From NCBI GenBank assembly GCA_021738725.1, contig JAIPBE010000016.1, positions 1-64,000 of the forward strand: a stretch of DNA of 64,000 bases, read 5' to 3'. The DNA is from Saprospiraceae bacterium. Its GTDB lineage: Bacteria; Bacteroidota; Bacteroidia; Chitinophagales; Saprospiraceae. Shown one piece after another: positions 55,779 to 64,000 of this stretch. A model generated the notes under the pieces. That model searched no databases. It had not been told where the DNA came from and was given only the letters and a program-made list of their open reading frames with translations. Each line of letters opens with the position of its first letter. Position 1 is the first letter of the stretch. The translations under genes were made by a program, and so were the position numbers.

Positions 55779-57116
55779 CTATTTCAGCTTGATGTGGTCC
55801 CAGACGTAGTTTCCAACTTCCCGGCCATTCATGCGGCCGCCTTCATTCCCCTGGCGATAATGGATACCTCCCCTGAGGCGACTCATTGCCGCTTGATCGG
55901 AGGCTTCATAAAAGGATGAAAACTCCCGCGCAGGTAGCTCGAAGATCACCTCTGTGCTATCCACAAATGGGAACGGGTCACCGAATGTGTGCATGAGGAT
56001 GGTTGCAGCCGCCGCAGAGATGGTGGCATGTGCGCTGGTATGTTCAGGGAATGGGGGTGTTTCGATGAAGGGTTTCCATTCCGGATCAATAAACTTGTTG
56101 ATATAGGTCTCCGGACGAACCAGTTCGGAGGTATACTTTTCTGTCCAACTGCTTAAAAAGCCATCCGCCAGCGCCAGCGCCACCAGAGTATACGTTCCAG
56201 TAGCTTCCATGATCGGCGTATTTGCCTTTCGGCAGGCAGTAGCGGTGATATTGATCCAGTGGCCGCCTGGAGTGATCTTCTTGGTAGCGAGCATCAGGTG
56301 TCCCATGACCGTGATCTCAAAGGGGTTACAGTCCCAGTAAATTGCGGTTTCCTTTACTTTATCATCCAGCGTTTTACTGATCTCGTACACCTCCATAGCC
56401 GCCTTGTAAAAATCGCTGTTGGGATCCTCACTATAGGGGATGTGAGGCTGTGGGCGAAGCTGGTTGGAAGAGTCCATGACCCAGGGGCGGATATCCTTCC
56501 AATAGGGCTCAATAGCATCGCCATAGGAAGGCGGAGTGGGCACCCATTTGGCGGGGTTTTCTTTCTGGATGGTGTATTTCGGAGCAGAACGCGTCTGTGC
56601 GTAATGATCCGACTTGGACCAGTTGATCACATGTTGGGCAACGGCATCTCCGAAAGCAACAGAACGATCATAGACATCCTGTGGAATATTCATGGTCTGG
56701 AACTCAAGGAAGATGGAATCTTGCAGTTCTTCCATGTCGGATTCCGAGAAGATCAGATGTTTCCCGACAGTCATCAAAGCAGTCAGAGAGGAGAGCGGAA
56801 AGCAGTATTCTTTTCCTGCTTCCGGTTGTGGACCTGCCTCGAAGTGCTTGATCTGTCCGGCAATGGTTTTGTATTCCGGATACCCTGGAATAAGGGCTTC
56901 GTACGCAGCAACAGCGGAGTAGGCATAGATCCGGGAAGCCACCGGAGGAGAAAAGATGTCCTCACGTATGATGTCCGTGATTCGGCGGAAGCCGCGATGA
57001 ATGAACTCCGGATTTTCGGCCAACTTTTGATAATCTGCGCCACCCGAAGAACAGGAGGGGAGCCAGAAGAGTGGCAGAATAAAGAGGGCCACAATGAGGT
57101 AAATAGAATGTTTCAT
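55779..57116 (-). CDS. Vanadium-dependent haloperoxidase-type lipoprotein (PAP2 superfamily)
   Basis: 445 residues. Lipobox LPSC with Cys22. The three vanadate/phosphate-site motifs are complete: K327-X6-R334-P335, S361-A362-H363 (PEHTSAHAT) and S412-R413-LRGGI-H419. The overall fold matches bacterial vanadium chloroperoxidase relatives. It may oxidise halides with peroxide or act as an acid phosphatase; sequence does not decide. It is anchored in the periplasm or outer membrane. Monocistronic with its own terminator. Confidence 0.9.
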   Translation of the reverse strand: MKHSIYLIVALFILPLFWLPSCSSGGADYQKLAENPEFIHRGFRRITDIIREDIFSPPVASRIYAYSAVAAYEALIPGYPEYKTIAGQIKHFEAGPQPEAGKEYCFPLSSLTALMTVGKHLIFSESDMEELQDSIFLEFQTMNIPQDVYDRSVAFGDAVAQHVINWSKSDHYAQTRSAPKYTIQKENPAKWVPTPPSYGDAIEPYWKDIRPWVMDSSNQLRPQPHIPYSEDPNSDFYKAAMEVYEISKTLDDKVKETAIYWDCNPFEITVMGHLMLATKKITPGGHWINITATACRKANTPIMEATGTYTLVALALADGFLSSWTEKYTSELVRPETYINKFIDPEWKPFIETPPFPEHTSAHATISAAAATILMHTFGDPFPFVDSTEVIFELPAREFSSFYEASDQAAMSRLRGGIHYRQGNEGGRMNGREVGNYVWDHIKLK

Positions 57117-58261: not shown

Positions 58262-58284
58262 CATCCGCTTCCTAAGAGCATGAT

Positions 58285-58355
58285 TGACCCATAGTGTAAT
58301 GGTAGCACTCCGGTTTTTGGTACCGTCAGTCAAGGTTCGAATCCTTGTGGGTCAA
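58285..58355 (+). tRNA. tRNA-Gln (anticodon UUG)
   Basis: 71 nt. Acceptor TGACCCA / TGGGTCA, D arm with AATGGTA, anticodon loop TTTTGGT giving UUG (Gln), T arm CAAGG-TTCGAAT-CCTTG, discriminator A. The top anticodon-stem pair (27-43) is C-T, a mismatch. The 3' CCA is not encoded (CCC follows). Confidence 0.93.
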
Positions 58356-58358
58356 CCC

Positions 58359-58391
58359 AAGCCATTCATCGTTTCGGTGGATGGCTTTTTT
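58359..58391 (+). terminator. Terminator after tRNA-Gln
   Basis: aagccattcatc / ggtggatggctt stem (12 pairs, two G-T) with a short loop, followed by six T's, four bases after the tRNA. Confidence 0.85.
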
Positions 58392-58504: not shown

Positions 58505-59410
58505 TTGAAGCACGCCCTACCCCTGCTCCTCCTGTTGATGGCGTTCTTGTCCTGCACTAAGGACAATGTCCTGATTCCCGACAATCAGCCCCCCAATTAC
58601 GAGGGTATACCGCTGATCAAGATCCAGAACTTTGTCAACCGTCTGTTTATCGACCTGTTGGCGCGTGAGCCCCTGGATCCAGAAATGGATGCCTTCGTTC
58701 AGGAGTTGCAATTGGCCAAATTGGCCCCGGAAACTCGATTGATCCAGGTGATCCGTCTCCAGACAGATACTGCTTTCATTGTCGGTGACACCAGCTATCA
58801 TCGGGCCTATATCCAGAACCTGTACAATCAGGCAAAAGCCCGTACCCTGGAAGGAGTCAGTGACGGGGATATCAAGGGCGATGCAGGGATCTTCCTCAAC
58901 GGTGCATATAAGGATAGCCTGGCAGGCAACTGGGAAGGCTACACCAAAAACATGAAGGCCGCAGAGCGGCTGCTCACCGTCATTCGCGGTCGCAGTGAGT
59001 TCCAATCCGAACAGATCACCTATGATCGTCTCTTTGCACGTTGTGTCAACAACTCGATCTACGACAAGATCAATATGAACACGGTCAACTTCGTGAACGC
59101 CACATTTGACAATTTGCTGTGGCGGTACCCGACCAAGTCGGAATTGCTGGAAGGATTCAATATGATCGAATACAACTTACCGGGGACCATCTTTGGCAAA
59201 CAGGGCACGAATAAAGATGACTATGTGGAGATCCTGACCAATTCCAGAGAGATGTTCGAAGGCTTGATCATCTGGTCTTATCAACAACTCCTGGCCCGGC
59301 GGCCGACTAGCGAAGAGACGGGAGTACTTCTTCAGGATTTTGCTGGTCACCGTGACATTCGCCTTATTCAACAACAGATACTGATCACTGATGAATATGC
59401 CAATTTCTAG
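58505..59410 (+). CDS. Lipoprotein with repeated R-x-P-T/L helical units (301 aa)
   Basis: 301 residues; TTG start giving MKHALPLLLLL. Lipobox FLSC with Cys17. Three similar helical units recur: FVNRLFIDLLAREPLDPEMD (from about 43), FDNLLWRYPTKSELLEGF (about 203) and SYQQLLARRPTSEETGVL (about 262). The 'LL-x-R-x-P-T-x-x-E' unit resembles the C-terminal motif of planctomycete DUF1553 and DUF1800 proteins. It is the first gene of a six-gene envelope operon; the next gene overlaps it by 20 bases. Function unknown; a partner of the DUF1501 protein is inferred. Confidence 0.75.
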   Translation: MKHALPLLLLLMAFLSCTKDNVLIPDNQPPNYEGIPLIKIQNFVNRLFIDLLAREPLDPEMDAFVQELQLAKLAPETRLIQVIRLQTDTAFIVGDTSYHRAYIQNLYNQAKARTLEGVSDGDIKGDAGIFLNGAYKDSLAGNWEGYTKNMKAAERLLTVIRGRSEFQSEQITYDRLFARCVNNSIYDKINMNTVNFVNATFDNLLWRYPTKSELLEGFNMIEYNLPGTIFGKQGTNKDDYVEILTNSREMFEGLIIWSYQQLLARRPTSEETGVLLQDFAGHRDIRLIQQQILITDEYANF

Positions 59411-59885
59411 AATACTGGCTTTCGGGCTGTTGCTAGGCACACTGGCTGGCAGCTGCAAAGAAGAGCAATACACTTATGGTGTTGAAGATGTGCTGGTCCA
59501 GCCAGTGGATCTCAGTGGTAAAAAGTCCAAGACACCCGAACAGTACCTCAACATCCTCTATGCCAATCTGTATCAAAAGGCCATGAGTGCCAACCAGCTG
59601 GTCAAGGCTACGGATGTAATCACATCCATCGGCGACAAACAGGTCGCTTATGAGACCCTGATCAGCAAGTTTATGAATGATCCGAATATCATTCTACCTA
59701 CGGAAGAAAGCATGCGTAATGATCCTGAGGCCTTTGTTCTGGAGACCTATCAGCGATTCCTTGTGCGGATCCCCACGGAAGCAGAAAAGACATGGATGAT
59801 CAATTTCATCAACTCTCATCCGGATGTGACACCGGAACATGTGTACTACTCCTTTGCCATCGCCAACGAATATTATTTCTATTGA
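59391..59885 (+). CDS. Small lipoprotein with one R-x-P-T unit (164 aa)
   Basis: 164 residues. Lipobox LAGSC with Cys22. The mid-protein is helical (YLNILYANLYQKAMSANQ) and the C-terminal TYQRFLVRIPTEAEKTWM repeats the helical unit of the preceding protein. It overlaps the previous gene by 20 bases (start could also be the Met at residue 3) and precedes the DUF1501 gene by 28 bases. Function unknown. Confidence 0.75.
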   Translation: MNMPISRILAFGLLLGTLAGSCKEEQYTYGVEDVLVQPVDLSGKKSKTPEQYLNILYANLYQKAMSANQLVKATDVITSIGDKQVAYETLISKFMNDPNIILPTEESMRNDPEAFVLETYQRFLVRIPTEAEKTWMINFINSHPDVTPEHVYYSFAIANEYYFY

Positions 59886-59913
59886 TCCCTGAGGGGTTAA
59901 AAGCCGATCGTGC

Positions 59914-61263
59914 ATGAAACGACGTGAATTTATAAAGAAGTCAGCCCTGGTTACTGGAGCTATTACGGTGCCGTATATCCTGCCCACAGGGCGTCTGTTT
60001 GCCCAAACAGGCAGTCAGAAGGCCGAGCATGTGGTCCTGGTACTCTTTGCTGGAGGTGTGCGCCATCAGGAATCCATCCTGCAGCACTATCTGGCAGAAA
60101 GTCAGGACCTGGATATCGAAGGGAACATCATGTACAATATGCTGACCGGCGATGCGCCTGAACTCAAAGTGGTGTATGGCACCACGCCTGCCGGCCAACA
60201 ACCCGGCATCCAGCCCATCAGTCGGATCCTTCAGACGCCATTGGACAAGCAGGGCACCCTCTTTCCGGAAGTTCGATTCTCCAAAGCGGGAACGGGCCAC
60301 TTTGTCGGATTGAGCACCGGTGTATCCGGACATTATGGAGTGACACAGGGGCTCCGCCAACGCCCGATCAATCCGACCATTTTTGAATATATCCGACGGT
60401 ATATGAATGCCAAAGCCACGGATGTCTGGTTTGTCGGCAACGGCATAGGCAACTCCACACCGCTGCTCAACCATTCAGACCATCCCGATTTTGGATACCG
60501 GTATGCAGCTAATTTCTTTGCCCCCAATGTGACCTTTGGTAGTAAGGGGGTCGAGTTCCTCAAAGGATTCAAGGTGTATCATCCGGATGAAGAGCTGGTC
60601 CCCATCCGCGAGATGCAGGCGTTTTTGAACAACAGCTTCAACCTGGCCGGAAAAGAGATCCCCCACCTCTACAACACAGATGAGGAAAAAGCGGATATCA
60701 AAAACTTCATTCGCACCACCTTCGAGCGACTGGAAAATAACCAGGTGAGCTTCCCGCCGGTCACGGATAATGGTGACCTGTCGACCATCGGTTATACCAC
60801 CGAGATTTTGCGCTGGTTCAAGCCGAAATTGACGGTGGTGAATATGAGTTCAGTGGATTCCTGCCATGGCAGCTATACCAGCTACCTCAAATCTCTACAT
60901 AGAGGAGATCATGCCGTGGGACACCTCTGGAATTTTATTCAGACCCAGATCCCGGAGATGAAGGACAATACGGTGATGATCATCCAGCCCGAACATGGCC
61001 GGAATTATGAACCGAATCCCATCACCGATGAGAATGACTGGTTTGCCTTTGACCACGATTCAGATGCGAACTCCCGTCGAATCTTCACGCAGATGGTGGG
61101 TCCGAATGTGCCTGCCAACCTGCGGGTGGGATCAGAACTCAATCCTGTCGGCGATGCGGCAGATGCAGTGGTGACCATTGCAGATATCCTGGGCATCAAA
61201 CAGGACGTTCTGGGTCGCGGACTGGTAGATTTCAACGCGATGTCTTTGTTTGATCGGATCTAA
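59914..61263 (+). CDS. DUF1501-like Tat-exported protein
   Basis: 449 residues. Twin-arginine signal MKRREFIKKSALVTGAITVP, then an alkaline-phosphatase-superfamily-like fold: VVLVLFAGGVRHQES near residue 40, VVNMSSVDSCHGSYTSYLKS and TVMIIQPEHGRNYEPNP near the metal-site end. DUF1501 proteins are plentiful in planctomycetes, paired with PSCyt/DUF1553 genes. Exported folded, so it may carry a metal. The whole operon suggests a periplasmic or surface complex. Catalytic activity is unproven. Confidence 0.82.
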   Translation: MKRREFIKKSALVTGAITVPYILPTGRLFAQTGSQKAEHVVLVLFAGGVRHQESILQHYLAESQDLDIEGNIMYNMLTGDAPELKVVYGTTPAGQQPGIQPISRILQTPLDKQGTLFPEVRFSKAGTGHFVGLSTGVSGHYGVTQGLRQRPINPTIFEYIRRYMNAKATDVWFVGNGIGNSTPLLNHSDHPDFGYRYAANFFAPNVTFGSKGVEFLKGFKVYHPDEELVPIREMQAFLNNSFNLAGKEIPHLYNTDEEKADIKNFIRTTFERLENNQVSFPPVTDNGDLSTIGYTTEILRWFKPKLTVVNMSSVDSCHGSYTSYLKSLHRGDHAVGHLWNFIQTQIPEMKDNTVMIIQPEHGRNYEPNPITDENDWFAFDHDSDANSRRIFTQMVGPNVPANLRVGSELNPVGDAADAVVTIADILGIKQDVLGRGLVDFNAMSLFDRI

Positions 61264-61271
61264 ACCCGCCT

Positions 61272-62231
61272 ATGACCAAATTGTACTTTCCCCTTATTGT
61301 GTTGTTGCTGGCTGGTTTGATGATAACCACTTTGGTCTCATGCGACAAAGCTCCTGATAACCCGTTCGACCAGACGGGGGGCCCGGATCCAATGGATACC
61401 ATACCGGATCCTGCCGATCTGGGGACCATCGAAGGTTTGCATGCCCGAATATTTTCAAAGACCTGCGCGAACAGCGGCTGTCATGATGGCACCTTTGAGC
61501 CTGATTTTCGCACCATCGAAAGCACCTACAATACCCTGGTGTATCATCCGATCATCAAGAATGATCCGATGGGTACCTACGAATACCGGGTTGTTCCAGG
61601 CAATCCGGATGCTTCCGTGATCATGGCTCGACTCACCTATGATATTGATGGCAACTCCGGACTGATGCCCCTGGTCGTGGATCCAGGGTCAGAATGGGCA
61701 ACCAAAAAGGATGAGTTCATCCAGGCGATCAAAACCTGGATCCAGAATGGGGCAAAAGACATATTTGGCCAGACCTACAGCCTTCTGGATGCTGTGCCAA
61801 CCATGCAGGGTGTGATCGCAGAATCGAATGGTGTGTATATGGAACGTAATGATGCCGGGCAGGGGGCCTTTCGGGTTCCACAGAATGTGACTCAACTCTC
61901 CATTTTTTTCAGTTTGCTGGATGATAAGACCCTGCCTCAGAATCTGACCGTCAACGAGATCAAATTTGCCAATGGTCCGGATGCATTTGCTGGAAATCCG
62001 ATCCAGAATCTGGAGGTCCTGACAACGCCTGTGACCTTCCAAGGTTATTATGGACCGCAGGTCCAGTACACCCACAGGATCGTCATCAACCCACAACAAA
62101 TGGCTACCCTTGACCAAACGATATATTTCAGGATCTATGTTCAGGACAATGTCAATCCGGTCACCGAGATCCCGACGGATGCCGGTGTGTATTATATCAA
62201 GAATTACTTCTCATTCACCATTGTGGAATGA
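61272..62231 (+). CDS. Lipoprotein with CX4CH haem-type motif
   Basis: 319 residues. Lipobox LVSC with Cys24. Near residue 65 FSKTCANSGCHDG gives C65-X4-C70-H71, a spaced variant of the c-type haem motif seen in planctomycete-type cytochrome domains; Met132 (SGLMPLV) could be the distal ligand. The C-terminal half is beta-rich. It lies 8 bases after the DUF1501 gene and overlaps the next by four bases. Electron transfer is inferred; haem attachment is not shown. Confidence 0.8.
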   Translation: MTKLYFPLIVLLLAGLMITTLVSCDKAPDNPFDQTGGPDPMDTIPDPADLGTIEGLHARIFSKTCANSGCHDGTFEPDFRTIESTYNTLVYHPIIKNDPMGTYEYRVVPGNPDASVIMARLTYDIDGNSGLMPLVVDPGSEWATKKDEFIQAIKTWIQNGAKDIFGQTYSLLDAVPTMQGVIAESNGVYMERNDAGQGAFRVPQNVTQLSIFFSLLDDKTLPQNLTVNEIKFANGPDAFAGNPIQNLEVLTTPVTFQGYYGPQVQYTHRIVINPQQMATLDQTIYFRIYVQDNVNPVTEIPTDAGVYYIKNYFSFTIVE

Positions 62232-62689
62232 AGCGACCCATCAACATTTCCGTCTTTCTTTTGGCCGTTGCAGTCATCGTTTTGACGACATCCTGCACAA
62301 AGGTGGACTCTTCGCCCACCTTTCCGATCGAACCCAGTATCAAGTTGATCGAGATCAATCAGCTGGAGGTCATGGAATTTCAGGATACCCTGGAAATTCT
62401 GTTGGCGTATGAAGATGGTGACGGGGATCTGGGCAATCTGGATCCGGATATTCCCAGCCTGGTGATCAAGGATGCCCGCCTGAGCCAGCCGGACAGTTTC
62501 CATCTGCAGCCCCTGGCACCGTATGGGGCACAGATATCCATACAGGGAGAGCTGCTCGTACGTCTACCTCAGTTATTTCTCCTGGGAAATGGCAGTACGG
62601 AGTCGACTCGGTTCAAGGTCAAACTATTGGATCGGGCCGGCCATGAAAGCAATGAGATCGAAACGCCTCAAATCAAGATCATCCGATGA
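62228..62689 (+). CDS. Small lipoprotein (153 aa)
   Basis: 153 residues. Lipobox TTSC with Cys23, then a beta-rich domain with an acidic stretch (LAYEDGDGDLGNLDPD) typical of Ca2+-binding Ig-like folds in Bacteroidota lipoproteins. Overlaps both neighbours by four bases (ATGA), so translationally coupled. Function unknown. Confidence 0.75.
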   Translation: MKRPINISVFLLAVAVIVLTTSCTKVDSSPTFPIEPSIKLIEINQLEVMEFQDTLEILLAYEDGDGDLGNLDPDIPSLVIKDARLSQPDSFHLQPLAPYGAQISIQGELLVRLPQLFLLGNGSTESTRFKVKLLDRAGHESNEIETPQIKIIR

Positions 62690-64000
62690 CGCGACTGCCC
62701 CTTTTTCTTGTTCTATTTTGCTGGCTGGCACTCATCGGACAAGCAGTAGCCCAGCCGACCTATGCCATGTCCAATGCTCTGGTGACCGATTGCGAAGGGA
62801 TTCTGACGGATAGCGAAGAAGGCCAATTGCCCGGTACATATGATCACAATGAGAATTTTACCTTCACCATCTGTATCAATCAAGCGGATAAGATTACGCT
62901 CAATTTTATCACTTTTTGTACGGAGGAGATCTTTGATATTGTCCGGATCTATGACGGTCCGGATACTCTCTCGACTTTGATCGGGGGCCCTTATTCCGGG
63001 GTGGTTGCACCCTTTAGTGTGACCGCTACCAGCGGCTGCATGACCGTTAATTTTATTTCTGATCCGAACGTAGTTTGCAATGGTTGGGTAGCCAACTGGG
63101 ATACAGAAGTGGATCCTCCCATACCCCCTGCGTTCCTACCCATGGCCAATGTGCCCTGTGGAAGTGATGAATTGATCTTGACCCTGGATAAGCCGGTATC
63201 CTGCGATTCTATCAATGCAGGCGCATTTACCGTCTTCGGGGCAAAAACCTATAATGTGGTCGCCGCTGTCCCCATCAATTGTGTCGGCGGAAAGACTACC
63301 ATGATCAAGGTGACATTGGGCACCCCCATTGATTTCAGCGGGGCCTATATTGTCCGATTCAAAGGCATTCAGTTGGATGAATGTGGATTTCCGCATCCAT
63401 TCAGTATTGAGACCGGATTCAGTGTGGTCGACTGCCCATTGTCAGTGGTTCTCTCTATCAACCCCGCTGAATTCTGCTCCGGAGGTTGCACACAGCTCAC
63501 AGCCACAGCTTCCGGAGGCGACCCCAATACCTATAGCTATACCTGGAGTGTGCCTGCACCGAATGTAAAGACCATTCCGATCTGTCTGACCGTACCGACG
63601 ACCTATAGTGTAACCGTGACGGATGGAGCAGGGTCTGTACCTGCAGTGGCGTCGATATTGGTCACGCCATTTGAGAAACCCTATATCGGGAATGATACCA
63701 CCGTCTGTCAATCGCAGGGACTGATCTGGTTTTCCACCACCATCCCCGGAGGGAATTGGTATGGTAAAGGAATCAATCCCGATCGCCGTTGGGAAAGTCG
63801 CTGGGATGCCTGGCGGTTGGGGGGATCTACTGTTGATGAGGTGATCTACGTCGATCCGAATGGATGTAGAGATACGTTGGTCGTTTCCAAAATACCGTTG
63901 AGTCAGGGCGGGCACGATGCAGCCTGTCCGGGTGCTCCACCATTTCAAGTTACGGGCGGTAGTCCTGCCGGGGGCACCTGGAGCGGCTCCGGGATTGCCC
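62686..64000 (+). CDS. Large secreted protein with CUB-like and Ig-like domains (cut by the window edge)
   Basis: At least 438 codons from MTRLPLFLVLFCWLALIGQA, open through position 64000. Signal peptide ends AVA-QP. A CUB-like domain covers about 30-145 (FTFTICINQADKITLNFITF, then VRIYDGPD), and later segments resemble PKD/Ig repeats (YSYTWSVPAPNVKTIPICLT) with 'GGNWYGKGI' and 'GGTWSGSGI' units. A C-terminal T9SS domain is expected beyond the window. It is the last visible gene of the operon, its ATG overlapping the preceding stop (ATGA). Probably an adhesin. Confidence 0.85.
   Translation, partial: MTRLPLFLVLFCWLALIGQAVAQPTYAMSNALVTDCEGILTDSEEGQLPGTYDHNENFTFTICINQADKITLNFITFCTEEIFDIVRIYDGPDTLSTLIGGPYSGVVAPFSVTATSGCMTVNFISDPNVVCNGWVANWDTEVDPPIPPAFLPMANVPCGSDELILTLDKPVSCDSINAGAFTVFGAKTYNVVAAVPINCVGGKTTMIKVTLGTPIDFSGAYIVRFKGIQLDECGFPHPFSIETGFSVVDCPLSVVLSINPAEFCSGGCTQLTATASGGDPNTYSYTWSVPAPNVKTIPICLTVPTTYSVTVTDGAGSVPAVASILVTPFEKPYIGNDTTVCQSQGLIWFSTTIPGGNWYGKGINPDRRWESRWDAWRLGGSTVDEVIYVDPNGCRDTLVVSKIPLSQGGHDAACPGAPPFQVTGGSPAGGTWSGSGIA

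Follow-up and report, generated by a model that had tools for sequence, protein, structure and literature searches.

A conserved envelope gene cassette of Bacteroidota that combines a predicted cytochrome lipoprotein, a DUF1501-like protein and a putative type IX surface protein

DUF1501-type proteins and the planctomycete cytochrome (PSCyt) domains are abundant, and the literature that we found on DUF1501 and PSCyt systems attributes no tested function to them (PMC5615132, PMC4452313, PMC5122149). In Verrucomicrobia, an association of PSCyt genes with sulfatase neighbourhoods has been described (PMC5615132), and in Proteobacteria one of DUF1501-DUF1800 gene pairs with chitin synthase (PMC5122149). 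At the cell surface, type IX substrates with a type B signal use and bind PorP/SprF-type carriers for secretion and anchoring (PMC9143113, PMC12618676). Here we describe a six-gene cassette at the end of a 64,000-nucleotide stretch of DNA from a Saprospiraceae bacterium (the window; contig JAIPBE010000016.1, positions 1–64,000, forward strand), which represents an independent and compact arrangement of the same types of part in Bacteroidota. As judged from gene neighbourhoods, a cassette of five or six predicted envelope genes is present in many uncultured Bacteroidota and recurs across hundreds of species; its composition and linkage are well supported.

The cassette consists of six co-oriented open reading frames on the forward strand, separated by −20, +28, +8, −4 and −4 bases, whose products we name P1 to P6 in gene order. 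The open reading frame coordinates agree with a preliminary description of this DNA, which had placed six genes at these positions and spacings and treated them as one unit. Lipoboxes in P1, P2, P4 and P5 and a twin-arginine (RR) motif in P3 likewise bear out its count of four lipoproteins and one substrate of the twin-arginine translocation (Tat) type. Pfam and NCBIfam labels alone gave no confident family for five of the six window proteins, and hmmscan found no DUF1800 match in the window proteins or in any alignment member.

A scan of GTDB genomes returned 391 relatives of P3 with their loci. The best 80 of these loci were taken for the gene-order count, 51 had complete flanks, and in 45 of the 51 all six genes lay on one strand in the same order. 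Median gaps in 47 six-gene relatives were −20, +12, −1, −4 and −1. Since the gaps are kept in these 47 relatives and the order in 45 of the 51 loci, the cassette is not a product of chance; its order is conserved across Saprospiraceae and beyond, as the reading in the preliminary description required, and its remark that no named system has this gene set also holds, none having been found. Distances among the relatives co-vary from one cassette gene to another (r 0.58–0.85), an observation that is descriptive only because related sequences correlate anyway. An apparent fusion of the P5 and P6 genes in one locus (L046) was rejected, being an assembly gap (a run of N).

The fetched neighbourhoods contain two types of cassette. 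Type A has the arrangement P1-P2-P3-P4-P5-P6, with P3 52–61% identical; type B is paralogous, its P3 being about 36–45% identical, and usually comprises P1–P5 with no adjacent P6, as in about 13 type B loci that hold P1–P5 in order. Both types are present in genomes G424, G458, G012 (loci L035 and L067), G060, G004, G051 and G010, and therefore stem from an old duplication or from separate acquisition. Relatives of P3 at E below 1e-40 occur in about 48 of 119 genomes of the order. Of 100 genomes from the host's own family, 19 have a true P3; among 296 high-quality genomes of the phylum, a single one outside the order (G159) has it, so that the distribution is patchy. Metagenome-assembled Saprospiraceae, Chitinophagales and Flavobacteriales make up the named carriers.

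Evidence for a common function also comes from genomes in which the genes have parted. In family f16 the operon is split, with P1-P2-P3 in one place and P4 elsewhere (accompanied by P5 in one genus), and P4 was kept by all six f16 genomes tested. Moreover, P1 and P3 had equal copy numbers in 15 of 15 genomes, five of them with two copies of each; for this count, two contig-edge fragments in G067 were taken as one gene. The split and the matching copy numbers together suggest that P1-P2-P3 and P4-P5 act as two sub-modules of one system. These comparisons of genomes show that the genes for P1–P5 are inherited together, and it is very probable that their products form one functional unit.

P4 (61272–62231, forward strand) is a lipoprotein in which motifs point to a PSCyt1-like mono-haem c-type cytochrome domain, followed by a C-terminal beta-type domain. 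C65-x4-C70-H71 and M132-P133 are invariant in 26 of 26 P4 proteins, and CX4CH is present in all 47 members of a second set; together with a C-terminal WI-x2-GA, the haem and MP motifs are invariant or nearly so. The Pfam model of PSCyt1 (PF07635) matched none of the 26 proteins, and P4 was not among the PSCyt1 matches in its own genome. Profile–profile comparison by hhalign, by contrast, aligned P4 with PSCyt1-positive Bacteroidota lipoproteins at a probability of 98.8% (E 4.9e-17), which bears out the earlier suggestion that this CX4CH lipoprotein is akin to PSCyt. The only match of P4 in the PDB was to a stretch of cytochrome FoxE (E 1.1e-4). Short P4 members (163–174 residues) consist of the cytochrome domain without the C-terminal beta-type domain, and the host encodes three cytochrome c assembly genes. 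P4 is expected to be a PSCyt1-related mono-haem c-type cytochrome and, going by what is known of the family, would hold haem.

P3 (59914–61263, forward strand) has a Tat-type export signal, with RR present in 44 of 47 relatives, and the host encodes TatC. Its AlphaFold2 (AF2) model (predicted local distance difference test, pLDDT, 85.5) adopts an alkaline-phosphatase fold and matches PafA with Z 27.4 and nucleotide phosphodiesterases (NPP) with Z about 24. Window P3 has no Pfam match and hence falls below the curated cut-off of DUF1501 (PF07394); a DUF1501 search of its own genome found three other genes and not P3. Pfam matches in 34 relatives were to Sulfatase (nine) and Phosphodiest (five), DUF1501 appearing only below threshold (best E=0.068). 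By hhalign, P3 matched DUF1501 with a probability of 97.3% in local mode (E 2.4e-11) and 99.0% in global mode, and matched phosphodiesterase-like Bacteroidota proteins of ~370 residues more strongly (E 1.4e-19). Weak matches to P3 across the phylum were considered as DUF1501 proteins and rejected, since they are phosphodiesterase-like.

The active site sets P3 apart from these enzymes. In global hhalign profile alignments G47 falls opposite their metal-binding Asp and H129 opposite their Ser nucleophile; in the P3 model a helix begins at H129 and G47-G48 close the first strand, as expected of these positions. P3 has neither the Ser/Thr/Cys nucleophile nor the first metal Asp of a Sulfatase or Phosphodiest enzyme, His129 and Gly47 being invariant instead, whereas its phosphodiesterase-like relatives retain the catalytic Asp and Ser. 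G47, H129, D315, H318, E360, D380 and H381 are invariant in 62 of 62 close relatives, and a wide set shows the same residues in 34 of 34 members except at E360 (Glu in 29, Asp in five). At the corresponding positions, all 15 DUF1501 sequences that were aligned carry G, H, D, H, E, D and H. Because the residues match and Pfam gives no match, P3 is best called DUF1501-like by its site rather than a member of Pfam DUF1501; its earlier designation as a DUF1501 protein thus holds for its fold and active site and fails for Pfam. Since all 15 DUF1501 sequences (for example L001:1180–2370, L189, L191, L206 and L208) have Gly and His at the positions of the metal Asp and the nucleophile, the class may not consist of ordinary hydrolases, and the alignment suggests that the usual phosphatase nucleophile is missing from DUF1501 proteins in general.

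P6 (62686–64000, forward strand) is cut by the end of the window, which holds its first 438 codons; on the contig (67,174 bases) it runs 2.2 kb further, to 66,195, and comprises 1169 residues. The full protein has CUB (2.3e-8), PKD (3.3e-7), PKD_4 (6.4e-8) and CHU_C (1.4e-16) domains, the last of these, at residues 1084–1152, constituting a C-terminal type IX (type B) secretion signal. What is known of such families indicates that P6 is probably surface-exposed, in keeping with its initial assignment as a surface protein. The accompanying view of P6 as a Sec-exported giant was right as to export, but CHU_C marks it as a type IX type B substrate, not one that is merely Sec-exported. P6 is the least conserved member of the cassette (mean identity 0.35, against 0.59 for P3). 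Among 57 related loci, 10 have a PorP/SprF-like gene directly after P6, in most cases with a 4-base overlap (the one in L213 is assigned by Pfam at 4.5e-32), and the host genome has 15 PorP/SprF genes elsewhere.

P1 (58505–59410, forward strand) is a lipoprotein with a TTG start and tandem DUF4214 or phycobilisome-linker-like helical domains, and P2 (59391–59885, forward strand) is a shorter lipoprotein with a DUF4214-like domain that is related to it (profile match 96.5%). DUF4214 (PF13946) was matched at E<=1 by 26 of 34 P1 relatives (best 3.6e-10) and 24 of 34 P2 relatives (best 1.7e-7); window P1 scored 21.2 bits against a cut-off of 23.2 and window P2 had no match. The phycobilisome linker family was matched by 16 of 34 P1 relatives, and when the AF2 model of P1 (pLDDT 92.5) was compared with the PDB by Foldseek, phycobilisome linkers came top but low-scoring, none under E 0.001. 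The resemblance to DUF1549 and DUF1553 put forward at the outset is faint only: PSCyt2 (DUF1549) and PSD1 (DUF1553) were each matched by eight of 34 P1 relatives (best E 3.5e-4 and 0.0023), and hhalign of P1 with full PSCyt2-PSD1 proteins aligned one helical unit at a probability of 14%. DUF4214/phycobilisome-linker lipoproteins appear to be the better class for P1 and P2, which by family resemblance may act as linkers; DUF4214 has elsewhere been called a likely surface-anchoring domain (PMC12780176). P5 (62228–62689, forward strand) is a small lipoprotein in which D-x2-G-D-x-G is invariant and D-R-A-G-x-x-S conserved in the alignment; Pfam gave nothing convincing for it, and the PDB no match.

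We tentatively read the cassette as a conserved set of envelope genes whose products assemble into one haem-bearing complex associated with the outer membrane, with P1–P5 as the core and P6 as a surface client, and give this mechanism as a whole slightly less than an even chance. P1 and P2 would scaffold P3, which would bind metal and no longer perform ordinary phosphate or sulfate ester hydrolysis; P4, more speculatively, would exchange electrons with P3 or sense through it. P5 might then dock the P1–P4 complex to P6, the coupling of the complex to P6 being equally speculative, while P6 would pass the outer membrane through type IX secretion and be retained at the surface by a PorP/SprF-type carrier, whose gene is a neighbour in some lineages and lies elsewhere in the host. 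Overall, the cassette would assemble or operate a surface protein layer in a redox-linked way, its redox role being one that we infer. Several observations weigh against this interpretation. The second metal ligand of P3, H361, is replaced by Cys in 27 of 62 relatives, so that metal binding could be partly lost; the window contig has no PorP/SprF gene adjoining P6; type B cassettes without P6 imply that the core is functional with no P6 beside it; and lipid-anchored P4 may face the periplasm with P6 outside, so that contact between the two is not assured. A bolder extension, in which P3 and the wider DUF1501 class are a hydrolase fold turned metal or redox protein that partners c-type cytochromes, and the cassette drives or powers a type IX-exported surface layer, strikes us as a long shot; if true, the P3–cytochrome pair could serve, for example, in oxidative cross-linking or in electron transfer to the cell surface. 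Because the cassette divides into two separable sub-modules and has a definable surface client, its function can be tested in a few proteins.

A rival reading is that P1–P5 only secrete, anchor or move P6, much as sprC, sprD and sprF serve the gliding adhesin SprB, and that the cytochrome-like fold of P4 is structural. For SprB and SprF this logic is established (PMC9143113, PMC12635249), P6 directly follows P5 in most close relatives and has the type B signal, and the PorP/SprF-like neighbours in 10 of 57 loci fit the same picture. We nevertheless consider an adhesin accessory operon unlikely, if worth serious attention, because about 13 type B loci keep P1–P5 in order with no P6 beside them and family f16 keeps P1–P4 without it, because the supposed beneficiary is the least conserved product, and because invariant haem and Met-ligand motifs oppose a merely structural P4. 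The fold of P3 and its nearest sequence relatives, which are phosphodiesterase-like, would suit an active enzyme of sulfatase- or phosphodiesterase-like type whose substrate is surface polysaccharide or phospho-polymers and which is held in place by P4 and P1/P2, and the reported PSCyt–sulfatase (PMC5615132) and DUF1501-DUF1800–chitin synthase (PMC5122149) neighbourhoods point the same way. Such a hydrolase module is improbable, since in every one of the 62 close and 34 wide relatives Gly stands in for the metal Asp and His for the nucleophile.

A divergent form of the planctomycete PSCyt1-PSCyt2-PSD1/DUF1501 system, with P1, P2 and P4 as the pieces of its large cytochrome protein, would account for the PSCyt1-like P4, the DUF1501 site of P3, the weak PSCyt2 and PSD1 matches of P1 homologues and the combination of helical, haem and DUF1501-type parts in both systems. 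In the host's own family, however, genomes such as G031, G044 and G057 carry PSCyt1-type cytochrome genes adjoining DUF1501-type genes (L204–L212). G031 has ten DUF1501 and ten PSCyt1 matches, the pairs often being followed by a further CxxCH protein, and the three of its proteins that were scanned have the full PSCyt1-PSCyt2-PSD1 architecture. Since the true pairs co-exist with the cassette in one family, the cassette is a parallel system and not a reduced replacement, and the idea of a reduced Bacteroidota counterpart of the planctomycete set, put forward in the preliminary description, is not supported as it stood. P5 and P6 moreover lack counterparts, and P1 aligns with full PSCyt2-PSD1 proteins over one helical unit only; we regard this derivation as quite improbable. 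Coincidental neighbours with no common function could appeal to the different domain types and nothing further, and are contradicted by synteny, by overlapping genes and by co-occurrence after the operon has split, so that the chance of this is negligible.

Around the cassette, ARAGORN places a tRNA-Gln (ttg) at 58284–58359 (forward strand), which serves as context only; P1 begins 145 bases downstream of its 3' end. A 445-residue lipoprotein is encoded at 55782–57116 on the reverse strand, and its C-terminal part, read by eye, resembles a vanadium haloperoxidase or PAP2-type phosphatase. At L004, 4484–5075 (contig 66483–67074), the N-terminal portion of a P-loop (GINGTGKST) ATPase lies directly downstream of the cassette; the ATPase seems shortened near the contig end, and this looks like the edge of an insertion element.

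Among known proteins, the closest sequence relatives of P3 outside its own family are the Bacteroidota phosphodiesterase-like proteins (Phosphodiest/Metalloenzyme/Sulfatase, ~370 residues, for example L080), which retain the metal Asp and Ser nucleophile, whereas P3 lacks both. P4 shares CX4CH, the MP motif, a lipoprotein anchor and a closing 'WI.QGA' with the Bacteroidota PSCyt1-family CX4CH lipoproteins (for example G000 C1:42161, L182); these are of the di-haem kind and have a second small cytochrome as partner, whereas P4 is single-haem, as its motifs would have it, with a beta-type C-terminal domain. Many genomes of the order have a recurrent pair of cytochrome lipoproteins (L168–L183; L182 is G000 C1:42161–42313), one member being di-haem (CX4CH then CxxCH) and the other, of ~125 residues, having a 'CYYD' lipobox context. 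DUF1501-DUF1800 pairs, such as those beside chitin synthase (PMC5122149), likewise consist of a Tat-type DUF1501-family protein with a partner, but P1–P6 have no DUF1800 match, and the cassette adds a predicted haem protein and a type IX substrate. The DUF1501 module of Planctomycetes and Verrucomicrobia resembles the cassette in its DUF1501-type export protein with the same altered site, its PSCyt1-like haem domain and its helical partner. In the cassette, by contrast, separate lipoproteins make up the haem part and the DUF4214-like helical parts, and P5 and P6 are added, with the true module separate in relatives. Finally, the type B (CHU_C) signal of P6 and the PorP/SprF-like gene that follows it in some lineages recall operons of the SprB/SprF type; no SprF gene adjoins it in the Saprospiraceae loci examined, and P6 of the cassette is preceded by five core envelope genes, among them those for a putative cytochrome and a protein of alkaline-phosphatase fold.

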